Source: Corynebacterium humireducens NBRC 106098 = DSM 45392 (GTDB taxonomy: Bacteria; Actinomycetota; Actinomycetes; Mycobacteriales; Mycobacteriaceae). From it: a stretch of DNA of 64,000 nucleotides. Shown piece after piece: positions 8,902 through 57,206 of the stretch; positions within the stretch are counted from its first letter, which is position 1, and every line of letters starts with the position of its first letter. Under the pieces are notes generated by a model. That model worked only from the letters and a program-made list of their open reading frames with translations, was not told where the DNA came from and made no database searches. A program made the translations under genes and the position numbers. Location: NCBI RefSeq assembly GCF_000819445.1, contig NZ_CP005286.1, forward strand, positions 1,364,001-1,428,000. Direction: 5' to 3'.

Positions 8902-9050
8902 GGTGGAAAGGTACCTCACTTCCCCAGCGAAATGCTGGTTTCAGCGTGTCCACCATCAAGGGGTCAGGTCCGCTCCCGAACAGCTATTTCCCGCACGTTA
9001 ACCCACCCCGGTGCCGCCTTCTGCTAGGCCCGCTCGATTGGCTGTAAGCG

Positions 9051-50257: not shown

Positions 50258-51679
50258 ATGACGAACACCCCTTTCCGTCCTGAGGGCGGCCGCCATCACG
50301 TGGTCATCATCGGCTCTGGCTTCGGTGGCCTATTTGCGGCCCAGGAGCTGAAGAACGCAGACGTCGATGTCACCATCATCGACCGCACCAACCACCACCT
50401 CTTCCAGCCGCTCCTGTACCAGGTAGCCACCGGCATCCTGTCCTCCGGCGAGATCGCCCCGTCGACCCGCCAGGTACTCAAGGGCCAGGAGAACGCCAAC
50501 GTGGTCAAGGGCGAGGTGACCGACATCGACCTCGAGCGTCAGGTCGTCACGACCTCCCTCGGCGCCTACACCCGTGAGTTCGAGTACGACTCCCTCATCG
50601 TCGCCGCCGGCGCCTCCCAGTCCTACTTCGGCAACGACCACTTCGCAGAGTTCGCACCGGGCATGAAGACCATCGACGACGCCCTCGAGATCCGCGCCCG
50701 CGTCATCGGCGCCTTCGAGCGCGCCGAACTCGCCAAGGACCCCGCGCAGCGTGAGCGCCTGCTCACCTTCGTCATCGTCGGTGCCGGCCCGACCGGCGTC
50801 GAGCTCGCCGGCCAGCTCGCCGAGCTCTCCCACCGCACCCTCGTCGGCGAGTACTCCAACTTCTCCACCTCCGCCGCCAAGATCCTGCTTCTCGACGGCG
50901 CCCCCCAGGTCCTCCCGCCCTTCGGCAAGCGCCTGGGCCGCACCGCCCAGCGCCAGCTGGAGAAGCTCGGCGTCACCGTCAAGCTCAACGCGATGGTCAC
51001 CCACGTCGACGACAAGACCGTCACCTACAAGTCCATGGTCGACGGCTCCGAGACCACCATCGAGGCCTTCACCAAAATCTGGTCCGCCGGCGTCGCCGCC
51101 TCCCCGCTGGGCCGCCTCGTCGCCGACCAGGCCGGCGTCGAGATGGACCGCGCCGGCCGCGTCATGGTCAACGACGACCTCACCGTCGGCGAGCACCGCA
51201 ACGTCTTCGTCATCGGCGACATGTCCAACTACAAGAACCTGCCGGGCGTCGCCCAGGTCGCCATCCAGGGTGGCCAGTACGCCGCCGAGCAGATCGCCGA
51301 CCAGGTCGCCGGCCGCACCGCCGTCGACGAGCGCCCCACCTTCGAGTACTTCGACAAGGGCTCCATGGCGATCGTCTCCCGCTTCAACGCCGTGGTGAAG
51401 ATGGGCAAGGTCGAGGTCACCGGCTTCATCGGCTGGCTGCTGTGGCTGGCCGTCCACGTCCTCTTCCTCGTGGGCTTCCGCAACCGCTTCGTCTCCATGA
51501 TCAACTGGGGCGTCAACGCGCTGTCCCGCACCCGCTACAACCTGGCGACCACCCGCCAGCAGCTGCACTCCCGTACCGCGCTGATGAAGCTGCAGGCCAT
51601 CACCTCCGAGATCGAGGGCGACACCCCGATCGAGCTGCGTGACACCACCAAGTTCACCGGCAAGAAGGAGCTGCGCTAA
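50258..51679 (+). CDS. ndh: Type II NADH dehydrogenase
   Basis: Ndh-2 oxidises NADH and reduces menaquinone without pumping protons. The 473-residue flavoprotein has an FAD motif VVIIGSGFGGLFAAQEL, an NADH motif FVIVGAGPTGVELAGQLAEL, and QPLLYQVATGILS. VFVIGDMSNYKNLPGVAQVAIQGGQYAAEQI is read in sections. An amphipathic and hydrophobic C-terminal region (GWLLWLAVHVLFLVGFRNR) attaches it to the membrane. The ATG at 50258 is chosen because GAGGAA lies about 10 nt upstream; a codon six residues earlier overlaps that site. A possible -10 TACGAT is at 50208-50213. An intrinsic terminator follows. Confidence 0.95.
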   Translation: MTNTPFRPEGGRHHVVIIGSGFGGLFAAQELKNADVDVTIIDRTNHHLFQPLLYQVATGILSSGEIAPSTRQVLKGQENANVVKGEVTDIDLERQVVTTSLGAYTREFEYDSLIVAAGASQSYFGNDHFAEFAPGMKTIDDALEIRARVIGAFERAELAKDPAQRERLLTFVIVGAGPTGVELAGQLAELSHRTLVGEYSNFSTSAAKILLLDGAPQVLPPFGKRLGRTAQRQLEKLGVTVKLNAMVTHVDDKTVTYKSMVDGSETTIEAFTKIWSAGVAASPLGRLVADQAGVEMDRAGRVMVNDDLTVGEHRNVFVIGDMSNYKNLPGVAQVAIQGGQYAAEQIADQVAGRTAVDERPTFEYFDKGSMAIVSRFNAVVKMGKVEVTGFIGWLLWLAVHVLFLVGFRNRFVSMINWGVNALSRTRYNLATTRQQLHSRTALMKLQAITSEIEGDTPIELRDTTKFTGKKELR

Positions 51680-51702
51680 GCCGCTCCCGCCCGACAACCC
51701 CC

Positions 51703-51742
51703 GAAGAGGAACGAACACGCCCCACCGTGTTCGTTCCTCTTC
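51703..51742 (+). terminator. Intrinsic terminator of ndh
   Basis: A perfect 17-bp stem (51703-51719 with 51726-51742) with a 6-nt loop is followed by TTTTCC. It isolates ndh from the PFL operon. Confidence 0.9.
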
Positions 51743-51785
51743 TTTTCCGCCCTTCCCGCTCGGTGGTCGGCCCTGACCCGGGGGC

Positions 51786-51791
51786 TATAAT
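51786..51791 (+). promoter_or_regulatory. -10 box (TATAAT) of the PFL operon
   Basis: A consensus TATAAT lies 54 nt before the pflB GTG. A leader of about 45 nt would carry the GAGAGG ribosome-binding site at 51833-51838. No clear -35 is visible, which suggests activator control, for example by oxygen status. Confidence 0.6.
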
Positions 51792-51845
51792 CGAGGACAG
51801 TTGTGACATCGACACACACCCCACCACTCCCTGAGAGGTTGACAC

Positions 51846-53933
51846 GTGACCACCGTTATCCCGCCTGTGACCCAGGCCTGGGAAGGCTTCGCTGAGGGGG
51901 CGTGGACCGACACCATCGACGTCCGCGACTTCATCCAGCGCAACTTCACCCCCTACACCGGCGACGCCGCCTTCCTGGCCGGCCCCACCGACAAGACCCT
52001 CCGCACCTGGCAGCACCTGGAGGACAACTACCTGTCCGTCGAACGTGAACGCCGCGTGTACGACGTCGACACCGAGACCCCCGCGGACATCGACGCCTTC
52101 GGTCCCGGCTACATCAGCGAGGACGACGACGTCATCGTCGGCCTGCAGACCGAGACCCCGCTCAAGCGCGCCATGATGCCCTACGGCGGCTGGCGCATGG
52201 TCGAGACCGCCCTCCGCGAGGCCGGACGCGAACCGGACCAGCGCGTCAAGGAGATCTTCACCCGCTACCGCAAAACCCACAACGACGCCGTCTTCGACAT
52301 CTACACCCCCCGCATCCGCGCGGCCCGCTCCTCCCACATCATCACCGGCCTCCCCGACGCCTACGGCCGCGGCCGCATCATCGGCGACTACCGACGCGTG
52401 GCGCTCTACGGCGTCGACAGGCTCATCGCCGACAAGGAGGCCGCCAAGCACGCCGTCCACGACGCCGGCTTCTCCGAGCACTGGGCCCGCTACCGCGAGG
52501 AACACGCCGAACAGATCCGCGCGCTGAAGAAGCTGAAGGTCATGGCGGAGTCCTACGGCTTCGACATCTCCGGCCCCGCCACCACCGCCCAGGAGGCCGT
52601 CCAGTGGACCTACTTCGGCTACCTCGGGGCAGTGAAGTCCCAGGACGGCGCCGCCATGTCCATCGGCCGCCTGTCGAGCTTCCTCGACATCTACATCGAA
52701 CGTGACCTCGCCGCCGGCACCCTCACCGAGGAGGGCGCCCAGGAGCTCATCGACGCACTGGTCATCAAGCTGCGCATCGTCCGTTTCCTGCGCACCATCG
52801 ACTACGACCAGATCTTCTCCGGCGACCCCTACTGGGCGACCTGGTCCGACGCCGGCTTCATGGACGACGGCCGCCCGCAGGTCACCCGGACGTCCTTCCG
52901 CCTGCTGCAGACCCTCCGCAACCTGGGCCCCGCCCCCGAACCGAACATCACCATCTTCTGGGACGACCAGCTGCCGGAGGGATACAAGGAGTTCTGCGCG
53001 GCCATCTCCATCGAGACCTCCTCGCTGCAGTACGAGTCCGACAAGCAGATCCGCGACCGCTGGGGCGACGACGCCGCCATCGCCTGCTGCGTCTCCCCCA
53101 TGAAGGTGGGCAAGCAGATGCAGTTCTTCGGCGCCCGCGTCAACGCCGCGAAGACCCTGCTCTACGCCATCAACGGCGGCCGCGACGAGATGAGCGGCAA
53201 GCAGATCGTCGAGGGGCACTCCCCCATCACCGGCGACGGCCCCCTCGACTTCGACGAGGTGTGGCAGAAGTACGAGGAGATGCTCGACTGGGTGATCAGC
53301 ACCTACGTCGAGGCGCTCAACATCATCCACTGGTCGCACGACAAGTACGCCTACGAGGCCATCGAGATGGCCCTCCACGACTCGGACATCATCCGCACGA
53401 TGGGCTGCGGCATCGCCGGCCTGTCGATCGTGGCGGACTCCCTCTCCGCGATCCGCTACGCCGACGTCTACCCGGTGCGTGACGAGACCGGCCTCATCGT
53501 CGACTACCGCACCGAGGGCGAGTTCCCCGTCTACGGCAACGACGACGACCGCGCCGACGACATCGCCGCGACCATCGTCCACACCGTCATGGCGAAGATC
53601 AAGGAGATCCCGCTCTACCGCGACGCGATCCCCACGCAGTCGGTGCTCACCATCACATCGAACGTCGTGTACGGCAAGGCGACCGGCAACTTCCCGTGCG
53701 GCCACCGGGCGGGCACCCCGTTCGCGCCGGGTGCGAACCCGACGAACGGCGCCGACAACCACGGCATGCTCGCGTCGATGCTGTCCGTCGGCAAGCTCGA
53801 CTACAACGACGCCCTCGACGGCATCTCACTGACCAACACCATCACCCCCTCCGGGCTCGGCCGCACCAAGGACGAGCAGGTTGAGAACCTCGTCGGCATC
53901 CTCGACGCCGGTTTCATCATGGACGAGAACTAG
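51846..53933 (+). CDS. pflB: Pyruvate formate-lyase large subunit lacking the glycyl-radical domain
   Basis: The 695-residue protein converts pyruvate and CoA to acetyl-CoA and formate. It aligns by eye with E. coli PflB from AWEGF/DVRDFIQ-NFTPYTGD to NVVYGKATGNFP and PFAPGANPTNGADNHGM. The catalytic pair is Cys414-Cys415 in IACCVSPMKVGKQ, the true PFL signature rather than a diol dehydratase one. It stops after LVGILDAGFIMDEN, just before the region that would lead to the RVSGYAV radical loop. That loop is encoded by the next gene, 9 nt downstream and in the same reading frame. It therefore needs the small protein in trans. The GTG start has GAGAGG upstream. Confidence 0.93.
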   Translation: MTTVIPPVTQAWEGFAEGAWTDTIDVRDFIQRNFTPYTGDAAFLAGPTDKTLRTWQHLEDNYLSVERERRVYDVDTETPADIDAFGPGYISEDDDVIVGLQTETPLKRAMMPYGGWRMVETALREAGREPDQRVKEIFTRYRKTHNDAVFDIYTPRIRAARSSHIITGLPDAYGRGRIIGDYRRVALYGVDRLIADKEAAKHAVHDAGFSEHWARYREEHAEQIRALKKLKVMAESYGFDISGPATTAQEAVQWTYFGYLGAVKSQDGAAMSIGRLSSFLDIYIERDLAAGTLTEEGAQELIDALVIKLRIVRFLRTIDYDQIFSGDPYWATWSDAGFMDDGRPQVTRTSFRLLQTLRNLGPAPEPNITIFWDDQLPEGYKEFCAAISIETSSLQYESDKQIRDRWGDDAAIACCVSPMKVGKQMQFFGARVNAAKTLLYAINGGRDEMSGKQIVEGHSPITGDGPLDFDEVWQKYEEMLDWVISTYVEALNIIHWSHDKYAYEAIEMALHDSDIIRTMGCGIAGLSIVADSLSAIRYADVYPVRDETGLIVDYRTEGEFPVYGNDDDRADDIAATIVHTVMAKIKEIPLYRDAIPTQSVLTITSNVVYGKATGNFPCGHRAGTPFAPGANPTNGADNHGMLASMLSVGKLDYNDALDGISLTNTITPSGLGRTKDEQVENLVGILDAGFIMDEN

Positions 53934-53942
53934 GAGAACCCA

Positions 53943-54194
53943 GTGTCCACCAAGACCTTCGACGAGCGCATGGCAGACATGAAGGCCGCCCGCGCCGCCC
54001 ACAACATGGAGTCCGGCCTCTACCACGCCAACATCAACGTCCTCGACCAGTCGACCCTCGAGGACGCGATGCACAACCCGGAGAAGTACCCCAACCTGAC
54101 GGTGCGTGTCTCGGGTTACGCGGTGAACTTCGTCAAGCTGACGAAGGAACAGCAGCAGGACGTCATCTCCCGGACCTTCCATCACGGTGCCTGA
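53943..54194 (+). CDS. Autonomous glycyl-radical subunit of PFL (GrcA-like)
   Basis: The 83-residue protein carries the PFL glycyl-radical domain on its own: [39 protein letters not shown] with radical Gly58, and [16 protein letters not shown]. The distance from the Gly to the C-terminus (25 residues) equals that in normal PFL. A charged helical leader of about 22 residues ([20 protein letters not shown]) is not found in fused PFLs. The GTG start has TAGGAGAA 5-6 nt upstream, overlapping the pflB stop. It resembles E. coli YfiD/GrcA, but here it is the only radical domain next to a large subunit without one. The activase start overlaps its end. Confidence 0.92.
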
Positions 54195-55050
54195 GGACGG
54201 CGTCACCGGCGTCGTCCGCCTCTCACCCGAGGAGGGTGACCGGGTCCGGGGCGTCGCCGCGGGTCTCGGCGGCACCGCCGAGGATCTCACCCGTCCCGAG
54301 CTTCTCGACGCCCGCGTCACCGGCGACGTCGCCCTCGTCCACTCCTGGGAGATCGTGACCGCCGTCGACGGGCCGGGGACGAGGATGACGCTGTTCCTCA
54401 CCGGCTGTCCGCTGCGGTGCCAGTACTGTCACAACCCCGACACGATGGAGATGCGCACCGGCACCCTGGAGCGCGTCGAGGACGTCGTCAGCCGCATCAA
54501 GCGCTACCGGCGCATCTTCCGGGTCACGCGCGGCGGGCTGACGATCTCGGGCGGGGAGCCGCTTTTCCAGCTGGCCTTCACCCGGCGGGTGCTGGCGGAG
54601 GTGCATGCGGCGGGGATCCACACGGCGATCGACACGTCGGGGTTCCTCGGGGCGCGTCTGAGCGACGAGGACCTGGAGAACATCGATCTCGTGCTTCTCG
54701 ACGTCAAGGCCGGCGACGAGGCCACCTACCGCGAGGTCACCGGCCAGTCGCTGCAGCCGACGATCGACTTCGGTGACCGTCTCGCCGCGCTGGGCAAGCC
54801 CGTGTGGGTGCGGTTCGTGCTGGTGCCGGGGCTGACGGACGATCCGGCGAACATCGAGCGGGTGGCGGACATCGTCGCCCGCTGGCCGAACGTGGAGCGG
54901 GTGGAGGTGCTGCCCTTCCACAACATGGGGGCCGACAAGTGGCGGGCCCTCGGCCTGCGCTACAACCTGGGCAGCACGAAGCCGCCGACGTCCCGTTCCC
55001 TACGGGAGGCGCGGCAGGTGTTCCGGGACCGCGGGATCGTCACGTACTGA
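54187..55050 (+). CDS. pflA: Pyruvate formate-lyase activating enzyme (radical SAM)
   Basis: The activase uses SAM and a [4Fe-4S] cluster to place the radical on the glycine, presumably Gly58 of the small subunit. The 287-residue protein has [29 protein letters not shown] with cluster ligands Cys74, Cys78 and Cys81 (read in parts). Further landmarks are [31 protein letters not shown] and [12 protein letters not shown]. Compared with E. coli PflA it has about 45 extra N-terminal residues. The GTG at 54187 overlaps the small-subunit stop by 8 nt, so the two are translated together. The 3' end overlaps the convergent HNH gene by 11 nt. Confidence 0.94.
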
Positions 55051-56158
55051 TCAGAGCCATCGCGGAGCGGTCGCGGATCGGGTGGATGTTCCGGCGGGGT
55101 GGCCCGCCGTCCGGTGGGTGGTGGACCACCCCGCCGGGTGCCCTTTCCATCCGGCCGTGGCGGGGCGGGGCGTCCGGGTCGTCGTCGTTGCGGGCGTTGT
55201 GCAGCCGGCACAGCATCGTCAGGTTGCGGATGTTCGTCTCCCCGCCCTCCGCCCAGGCGGTGAGGTGGTGGACCTCGCACTCGGAGGCCGGGGTGGTGCA
55301 CCCGGGGTACGGGCAGACGATCGTCTCCGCGGAGAGGAGGACGCGCTGCTTGAAGTTGGCGAAGCGCTCGTCCCGGTACATGTTCACCCCGCCGTGCACG
55401 GGGTCGAAGATCCCGACGTAGCCCTCGTCGGCCATCGCCTCGGCGACCAGTTCGGCGCCGGTGATGGTGGTGCCGTCGGTGCGGGCGAAGACGGTCTCGT
55501 CGCCCTCCTGCCGGAGCACCTTCGTCGACTCCGGCAGCGGCAGCACGGTGATCACCACCTCGCGGGCGGGCCCGCCACCCCGGGTGTCCAGGAAGGCGTC
55601 GAACATCGCCTGCTCGTAGGTCAGCCGCGGGTCGTCGCGACGGAGCTGGCCGGCCACGGTGCGGATGCCGCCGAGCACGTCGGCGATGACGCGTTCGGGG
55701 CCGGTGACCGTGAAGGTGCGGTTGCCCAGGCCGTCGGTGTTCTTGCCGCCCTTGAGGGCCCGCCGGCCGTAGGCCTTCTTCTCAGCGTCCTCCACCCCGC
55801 GGTTGTACTCGCGCACGCGAGTGGCGGCAGCCCGGTCGATCTCCTCCACCGTGCCGCGCAGGGAGCACAGCTCGACACGCAGCTCCCACGGGGTGACCGC
55901 TGCCCCGCGCAGCAGCTTGCGGGTGTGCTTCTCCACCACACCCAGCGCATCCAGCGACAACCCCACGGCAGCGTCCCGGGCCGCCTTCTGCAGCTTCCGG
56001 TGACGGGTCGGGCCGAAGTACACCCCGGCGAGCTTCTGCCACGCCCCGGCGTCCCGGAAACCCAGCGACGACAGCACGGCGGCGTCCACCGTGCCGGTGG
56101 ACAGGGCCTCCAGCACGGGGACGGCACGCAGGGCCTCGAACGCCGCGATCAGGTTCAT
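55040..56158 (-). CDS. HNH endonuclease / DUF222-type protein
   Basis: The 372-residue protein has an Arg/Ala-rich helical N-terminal DUF222-like domain. A C-terminal HNH motif follows: VCPYPGCTTPASECEVHHLTAWAEGGETNIRNLTMLCRLHNARN, read in parts, with paired zinc Cys, the His-His of the active site and final Cys and His-Asn. Such 13E12-like proteins are numerous and repeated in actinobacterial genomes; their role is unknown, though DNA cleavage is expected. The ATG at 56156-56158 is chosen. The stop lies inside pflA's 3' end. It starts 55 nt from a pair of DnaA-box sequences. Confidence 0.85.
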   Translation of the reverse strand: MNLIAAFEALRAVPVLEALSTGTVDAAVLSSLGFRDAGAWQKLAGVYFGPTRHRKLQKAARDAAVGLSLDALGVVEKHTRKLLRGAAVTPWELRVELCSLRGTVEEIDRAAATRVREYNRGVEDAEKKAYGRRALKGGKNTDGLGNRTFTVTGPERVIADVLGGIRTVAGQLRRDDPRLTYEQAMFDAFLDTRGGGPAREVVITVLPLPESTKVLRQEGDETVFARTDGTTITGAELVAEAMADEGYVGIFDPVHGGVNMYRDERFANFKQRVLLSAETIVCPYPGCTTPASECEVHHLTAWAEGGETNIRNLTMLCRLHNARNDDDPDAPPRHGRMERAPGGVVHHPPDGGPPRRNIHPIRDRSAMALIST

Positions 56159-56212
56159 GCCCCGCACGGTAAACGTGCGACAGGCGCTCGTCGACAAGCA
56201 CCTTCCCGGGCC

Positions 56213-56237
56213 TGTGGATAAACCCCCCTTATCCACA
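56213..56237. promoter_or_regulatory. Inverted pair of perfect DnaA boxes
   Basis: TGTGGATAA (56213-56221) and TTATCCACA (56229-56237) are both exact consensus DnaA boxes in opposite orientation, 7 nt apart. They lie between the HNH gene start and the ctaB terminator. They could bind DnaA (titration or gene control). The pair can also fold as a 9-bp hairpin, so an RNA-level role is an alternative. Confidence 0.55.
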
Positions 56238-56262
56238 AAAAAGCCGCTCCCGGAGGAGCGGC
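56237..56262 (-). terminator. Intrinsic terminator of ctaB
   Basis: On the minus strand GCCGCTCC pairs with GGAGCGGC (56243-56250 with 56255-56262, 4-nt loop) and is followed by six T. It lies 12 nt past the ctaB stop. Confidence 0.9.
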
Positions 56263-56273
56263 GCTTGACAGTG

Positions 56274-57206
56274 CTAGAAGAACGTGGTCGTCCAGCCGAG
56301 CATGGAACCGATCGTCTCCCAGCCGAGGACGGCGTCCACGGAGAGGGCGACGAAGACGAGTGCCAGGTAGTTGTTCGACAGGATGAACAGCTTGAGCGGC
56401 TTGACGTCCTTGCCGGCCTTGACGCCGTTGTGCAGGACGATCGCCATGACGAGGAAGTACAGGCCACCGATGAGGGCACCGGCGAGGTAGATCCAGGAGG
56501 CGGCCGGCACGAGCAGCAGCGTGGTCACGACGGTCGCGACGGTGTACCACACGATCTGGCGGGTGACCTGGACGGGCTTGCGCACGACGGGGAGCATCGG
56601 CACGCCGGCCTTCTCGTAGTCGGCGCGGTACTTCATGGCCAGGGCCCAGGTGTGGGGCGGGGTCCAGAAGAAGATGATCATGAACAGGACGATGGCCTGC
56701 CACCACTGGGCGGGGATGCCCTCGGGCATGTTGTCGGTGATGACGGCCCAGCCGACGAGCACCGGCATACAGCCGGCGGCGCCACCCCAGATGATGTTCT
56801 GCCAGGTCCGGCGCTTGAGCCACTTGGTGTACACGTAGATGTAGAACCAGTTGGTCAGGATGATGAAGAAGGCGGCGAGCCAGGAGTTCGCCAGCAGCCC
56901 CAGCCACAGCACCGAGATGATGAGCAGGGACCACGCGAAGATGGTGGCCTTCCTGTTCGTCACGGTGTGACGGACCAGCGGGCGGGCGCGGGTGCGGCCC
57001 ATCTTCTGGTCGATGTCGGAGTCGGCCACCATGTTGAAGGTGTTGGCCGCTGCGGCGCCCATCCAGCCACCGACGACGGTCAGCAGGATGAGGATGATGT
57101 TGTTCTCGCCACGCTCGGCCTGGAGCATCGCCGGAATCGTGGCTACGAGGAGCAGCTCAATGACCCTCGGCTTCGTCAGCGCAATATAGGCCTTGATTGT
57201 CTCCAA
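56274..57206 (-). CDS. ctaB: Heme O synthase (protoheme IX farnesyltransferase)
   Basis: The membrane enzyme adds a farnesyl group to heme B, making heme O on the way to heme A for the aa3 oxidase. The 310-residue protein has about eight to nine membrane segments. The prenyltransferase motif [24 protein letters not shown] (in parts) carries the first Asp-rich site, and [24 protein letters not shown] the second region. A TTG start at 57204-57206 has GGAGGAA 7 nt upstream. It is divergent from tkt, the usual corynebacterial order. Confidence 0.95.

Follow-up and report, generated by a model that had tools for sequence, protein, structure and literature searches.

A pyruvate formate-lyase encoded by two genes

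The pflB-grcA2-pflA locus of Corynebacterium humireducens very likely encodes a pyruvate formate-lyase (PFL) that is a standing two-subunit enzyme, with the catalytic core and the glycyl-radical domain on separate proteins. The locus lies in a window of 64,000 nucleotides, which is the whole stretch of DNA that was analysed, and its features are collected in Table 1. The large protein contains a PFL-like core with an adjacent catalytic cysteine pair (PF02901, 655 bits), and an alignment of its residues 9-690 with residues 8-693 of E. coli PFL equates this pair with C418-C419 of the latter. On its own it remains below the TIGR01255 cut-off (977.7 versus 994.2), and its TAG, near E. coli PFL residue 695, precedes the last strand and the glycyl-radical loop. 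The radical glycine in the RVSGYAV motif is absent from the PflB chain and is instead found on the small protein, whose alignment with E. coli PFL begins at residue 700, that of the large protein ending at 693. The Pfam Gly_radical domain is divided accordingly, the large protein covering model positions 1-65 and the small one 63-106. The small protein passes the GrcA2 model NF008341 (164.7 versus a cut-off of 145; the match spans 79 of the 80 model positions, 1-79, and takes in the leader) and stays under the cut-off of the GrcA/YfiD model TIGR04365 (87.8 versus 170). A dedicated activase, recovered by TIGR02493 with 298 bits (cut-off 231.75), adjoins the PFL genes.

An earlier note on this DNA had described a 695-residue PflB with the cysteine pair, an 83-residue RVSGYAV gene 9 nucleotides further on and an overlapping pflA, and all of this holds, coordinates included; the single frame of the two genes across the TAG and the separate ribosome-binding site and GTG start of the second gene, also claimed there, were confirmed, with AGGAG 6 nucleotides before the GTG. 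Promoter and terminator scans of window positions 51600-55200 found none. A gene for an HNH-domain protein (55043-56479, minus strand) converges on pflA, and an NDH-2-like oxidoreductase lies upstream, followed farther out by genes for a UbiA-type prenyltransferase and a transketolase.

Table 1. Features of the split PFL locus in the window
Feature	Position	Strand	Remarks
pflB core (large subunit)	51846..53933	+	695 aa, GTG start, TAG stop, catalytic C414-C415
pflB codons 575-579 (A575, T576, H579)	53568..53582	+	mark split versus near-fused PFLs; candidate leader dock
TAG between the halves	53931..53933	+	near residues 695-698 of E. coli PFL
Shine-Dalgarno AGGAG of the small gene	53932..53936	+	overlaps the pflB stop codon; 6 nt 5' of GTG
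grcA2 (small glycyl-radical subunit)	53943..54194	+	83 aa from a GTG start; RVSGYAV carries the radical glycine (G58)
grcA2 leader (residues 1-24)	53943..54014	+	without counterpart in the fused PFLs compared
pflA, PFL-activating radical SAM enzyme	54187..55050	+	8-nt overlap with grcA2

Gene layout in relatives and other genomic PFLs

To establish whether the split is the usual condition we considered the 80 best named loci related to the window (the best 80 of 584). In 79 of these, which include Corynebacterium, Actinomyces, Rothia, Mobiluncus, Brachybacterium and others, PFL is split at the same place, an agreement that far exceeds chance, the exception being a fused protein (L030) of Corynebacterium sp. 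Marseille-P4321. The large subunits of the 80 are 80-95% identical to that of the window, and the closest named locus among the matches listed is that of C. pollutisoli (95% identity of the large protein). The search of relatives for a PflB ending at the same point beside a small gene, as proposed in the earlier note, was thus positive in all but one case, and its view that the split is the normal state is borne out by these loci and by the lack of a fused copy elsewhere in the window genome. A fused PflB in a close relative, which the note had named as evidence to the contrary, does exist in one of the 80, but it reads as the loss of a stop codon among split rows.

Further sampling placed these loci in a wider context. 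At the level of the family (301 genomes) the small protein was matched in 18 genomes: the 12 from the window's genus all have short frames (86-163 aa) and the six from other genera are all fused (753-787 aa). The class sample (394 genomes) gave 44 matches at an E-value of 1e-12, of which 40 have frames of 755-1012 aa, and are fused by this length, and three are short frames behind a truncated PFL (two from the window's genus, one from another); the last (L172) comprises just 1,672 bases, lacks a PFL core and is probably a cut contig. Hence, over the class as a whole, the fused PFL is commoner than the split one.

The layout was compared across 91 split loci (those left of 101 rows once L030, six far-fused rows and the window's three copies are set aside). 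All of them have a start codon at the expected place in the small ORF, ATG in 88 and GTG in three; the small protein is 83 aa long in 72, and a Shine-Dalgarno match of 4-6 nucleotides precedes the small gene in 88. The stop of the large gene and the small gene are separated by 9 to 378 nucleotides (median 46). The largest of these spacings, in L097, contains an N and next to it an apparently reversed piece of pflB, and is probably an assembly fault. The small gene occupies the three possible frames relative to the large one in 36, 24 and 31 loci, such that only 36 share a frame. In 79 of 81 loci pflA follows downstream on the same strand, at 262 nucleotides or less in 78 and at 1,743 in L062, and in the other two (L038, L058) the contig ends first. 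The L062 locus, from Actinomyces provencensis, has a second partial copy of the 3' end of the small gene (8945-9022) beside masked sequence, with pflA 1.7 kb from the first copy, perhaps owing to a duplication or an assembly fault.

These data bear on two ways in which the arrangement might be only apparent. That a strain-specific nonsense mutation or sequencing error has broken an ordinary fused pflB, an idea invited by the shared frame of the window's halves with just one TAG and three further codons between them, is ruled out with near certainty by the 79 of 80 split relatives, the 55 of 91 out-of-frame loci and the conserved leader, start and Shine-Dalgarno sequence; the note's judgement that a simple nonsense mutation is unlikely thereby gains strong support from a conserved operon and leader and a mostly out-of-frame layout. 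It is also very improbable that readthrough of the TAG, or frameshifting, yields one fused chain in vivo, although 36 of the 91 loci are in frame and the natural fusion L030 retains both the leader and the Shine-Dalgarno sequence. Since the frames differ in 55 loci, readthrough could not join the halves there, which speaks against the single chain that the earlier note had named as a refutation; moreover, the spacing is highly variable, TAA, TAG and TGA all occur as the intervening stop, and the intergenic stretch is little conserved. Readthrough was therefore rejected.

A further possibility is that the small protein is a spare part of the GrcA/YfiD type for a damaged but intact PFL, with the large protein being a dead remnant. 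This receives some encouragement from the NCBI name of the small protein, autonomous glycyl radical cofactor GrcA2, and from the homology of its radical domain to E. coli YfiD. However, in the window genome, a single 2.68-Mb contig of 100% completeness, the two halves of one PFL are the only Gly_radical proteins, and there is hence no intact PFL that such a part could rescue. Among 16 named genomes searched, 12 yielded the two halves alone and L030 yielded their fusion; in the remaining three the one extra match falls inside an NrdD match; an intact PFL was thus found in none of 15, the 16th carrying the fusion. Together with the high identity of the 80 large subunits and the conserved operon, this makes the spare-part explanation scarcely tenable. 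The absence of another PFL from the window genome instead points to a standing two-subunit enzyme, unlike the GrcA case. The same genome encodes NrdD, the class III ribonucleotide reductase (G000:C1:354245-355936, minus strand), which makes anaerobic growth plausible.

A conserved leader and its candidate dock

The charged leader that the earlier note had reported as absent from fused PFLs could be delimited as residues 1-24 and is conserved in the 91 split loci. It is typified by the motif T-[FY]-x-E-R-[LM]-x-x-M-K-x-x-R, in which R9 is present in 91/91, M13 in 90/91 and R17 in 89/91 loci, with F or Y at position 6 in 91/91; L10 (77/91), K14 (82/91) and E8 (80/91) are less strict. Position 6, R9, L10, M13, K14 and R17 fall on one face of a helix, and E8 lies off that face. 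Across the 72 loci with equal lengths, third codon positions hold 48% of the pairwise differences in the leader, and the conservation of its first and second positions is 0.81 as against 0.41 in the intergenic stretch. This substitution pattern indicates that the leader is under constraint as a protein.

Comparison of 92 split with 47 near-fused PFLs identified eight positions of the core at which the two groups differ. Of these, A575, T576 and H579 are found in a five-residue stretch of a single helix, a clustering seen in 0.4% of random draws, in a test picked post hoc. This helix is the likely dock of the leader. The leader helix may serve for docking, in place of the covalent bond that has been lost. 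An initial set of 38 residues that appeared specific to split PFLs when compared with far-fused ones, including FPSGH, was discarded: only the eight survive against near-fused PFLs, at a looser threshold, and FPSGH is not among them. FPSGH characterizes the subfamily as a whole (FPCGH in the window, residues 616-620, 53691-53705), with TPDGR in its place in far-fused, Coriobacteriia and E. coli PFLs.

AlphaFold2 predictions were made for the natural fusion L030, with a mean pLDDT of 69.8 in the first job and 71.5 in the second. In both the leader was modelled as a helix (726-739) flanked by low-confidence stretches, with pLDDT values for the helix block of 46-53 (first job) and 75-82 (second job). 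Prediction of the radical loop and the last strand was poor.

Origin of the split in Actinomycetes and a second split in Coriobacteriia

The nearest fused relatives come from Cellulomonas, Sanguibacter, Serinibacter and others, are mostly 753-769 aa long and share 74-79% identity with L030 in the region searched. Their junction is a characteristic stretch of 16 residues, or near variants of it, and in the split proteins this is represented by LDAGF with a short tail, a stop, a start, the leader and GLYHANINV. In a 60-row tree the split and near-fused proteins form one subfamily (41 rows, 100/100) separated by a long branch. Within it the 29 split rows and L030 fall on one side of a branch whose support, 67/94.9 (not starred), is not decisive. 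In a FastTree analysis that included the near-fused rows, Timonella (L078) fell outside a group of near-fused and other split rows. This phylogenetic picture suggests that a single fission in Actinomycetes is likely. Within the subfamily the Corynebacterium rows are scattered and the window pairs with Rothia (97/94), suggesting transfer between families.

The fusion L030 (1684-4092) is itself placed among the split rows. Its stop has been lost, the former intergenic stretch is translated, and the leader and Shine-Dalgarno sequence are retained. Retention of the leader together with the A575, T576 and H579 residues is as expected of a secondary fusion, and by this evidence one Corynebacterium has re-fused the genes.

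A second kind of split PFL was recovered from a sample of the phylum (396 genomes, 66 with a match, 30 loci laid out, some weaker short-frame matches being left out). Stand-alone small proteins of another type are present in 21 of the 30 loci; in each of the 20 of these that were analysed further a large protein of 683-767 aa (with the start chosen automatically) is followed 34-210 nucleotides downstream by a small one of 83 aa. Here the cut lies earlier, so that the helix NLVSMIDAY sits on the small protein, and the large protein ends in a tail of its own, which is often acidic and contains cysteine. Two small proteins tested against NF038360 (GrcA3) pass it, with 167 versus a cut-off of 158. 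Named database matches of this type are from Olsenella, Atopobium and Thermophilibacter, from which we take these loci to belong to the class Coriobacteriia; assignment of one family of the sample (f40) to Coriobacteriaceae is a guess. The PDB entry 38lb, a Formate acetyltransferase of 739 aa, aligns with residues 15-727 of a 728-aa large protein of this type (L143), tail included. This nearly full-length match indicates that the PDB already contains a large subunit of the split type; no chain of 38lb was present among the radical-domain matches.

A common origin of the two kinds of split was rejected by a tree in which both types were constrained together (36 of the 60 rows; p-AU 5.25e-42). 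Thus, it would seem that a split PFL arose independently in two lineages of the phylum.

This history admits the explanation that the two-subunit enzyme is real and its division neutral, i.e. that drift fixed the fission and horizontal spread of the operon took it along, with no oxygen-related benefit. We give this about even chances: one re-fusion is known, fused and split forms coexist in one subfamily, and the scattered Corynebacterium rows suggest transfer, but two widespread splits of independent origin that fall at almost the same point of the structure, together with the conservation of the leader, weigh on the other side.

Predicted function of the two-subunit enzyme

In the two-subunit reading, the large subunit would contribute the active-site cysteines and an incomplete barrel; the missing last strand and radical loop would come in trans from GrcA2, together with the C-terminal helix, and GrcA2 would probably dock through its leader and strand. 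The glycyl radical is predicted to be installed at G58 by PflA, probably while the small subunit is docked on the large one. By homology, G58 would then abstract the hydrogen of C415, and the complex would cleave pyruvate to formate and acetyl-CoA as in PFL. We propose, with less assurance, that the small chain is broken at G58 by oxygen and that a fresh 9-kDa subunit could replace it; swapping only the oxygen-cleaved small part, as the earlier note had suggested, is plausible. A more speculative extension, which we regard as doubtful, is that the two splits are a convergent design for surviving oxygen, in which the 9-kDa radical subunit is a disposable cartridge on a stable large subunit and the leader a latch that lets PflA charge only a seated cartridge.

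Published physiology is consistent with a working enzyme. One study reports that Mobiluncus mulieris and Atopobium vaginae secrete formic acid, which is lowered by about 90% with 1 mM hypophosphite, a PFL inhibitor that also slowed growth in those cultures (PMC12208373). The genome of M. mulieris ATCC 35243 encodes only a split PFL, though the strains of the formate study may differ from it. Another study lists grcA (-17.96 fold) and pflB (-14.31 fold) as two genes that fall together in F. vaginae, the newer name of A. vaginae (PMC11979175), and, to go by the two gene names only, this pflB would lack the radical domain. The hypophosphite-sensitive formate of the two species makes it very probable that split PFL is functional.

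That PFL catalysis can be shared between two chains is established for E. coli. In one report, a truncated PFL (tPFL, residues 1-695) combined with YfiD has wild-type activity once activated, with binding undetectable by ITC and a 32-fold lower radical yield (PMC8683613); in another, PflB-G734A forms formate ('++') with GrcA and none without it (PMC12338860). The weak binding and radical formation of tPFL with YfiD imply that a bare split is poor and that natural pairs must have compensated, and the leader is the obvious candidate for what solves their binding problem.

Comparison with known systems

PFL is normally a single chain with both thiyl and glycyl sites, and stand-alone radical domains are viewed as repair parts; here the spare part would be a standing part. 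Many of these bacteria live on people and animals. The natural pair is probably well behaved where tPFL and YfiD bind poorly, and by mixing its two proteins one could study how PFL is activated, how the radical passes from chain to chain and how the enzyme is repaired after oxygen. There is also a consequence for annotation, as two genes of one enzyme carry different names: a genome paper on Varibaculum cambriense reports finding no evidence of PFL in its genome (PMC4177395), although V. cambriense DSM 15806 has the split operon. The small proteins are already known to annotators (GrcA2, GrcA3), the PDB includes a large subunit of the split type, and in a literature search covering mainly CC-licensed papers we found no account of a PFL with a permanently separate radical-domain subunit or of its double origin.

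Among characterized systems, E. coli PflB (TIGR01255; 1H16/2PFL) is one chain of 759 aa, whereas in the window the radical strand, loop and C-terminal helix form a separate 83-aa protein with an extra leader. The locus resembles E. coli GrcA/YfiD (TIGR04365) in combining a stand-alone glycyl-radical domain, PflA and a PFL without a usable radical site; however, YfiD has 127 aa and a different N-terminal half and rescues an intact, oxygen-cleaved PFL, which the window genome lacks. The NCBIfam models that the small proteins pass, NF008341 (GrcA2) and NF038360 (GrcA3), speak of an 'autonomous cofactor' in their names. The engineered tPFL with YfiD is cut at the same position as the window's PFL and is active once activated, but that pair is artificial and poorly bound, whereas the pair in the window is natural (PMC8683613).
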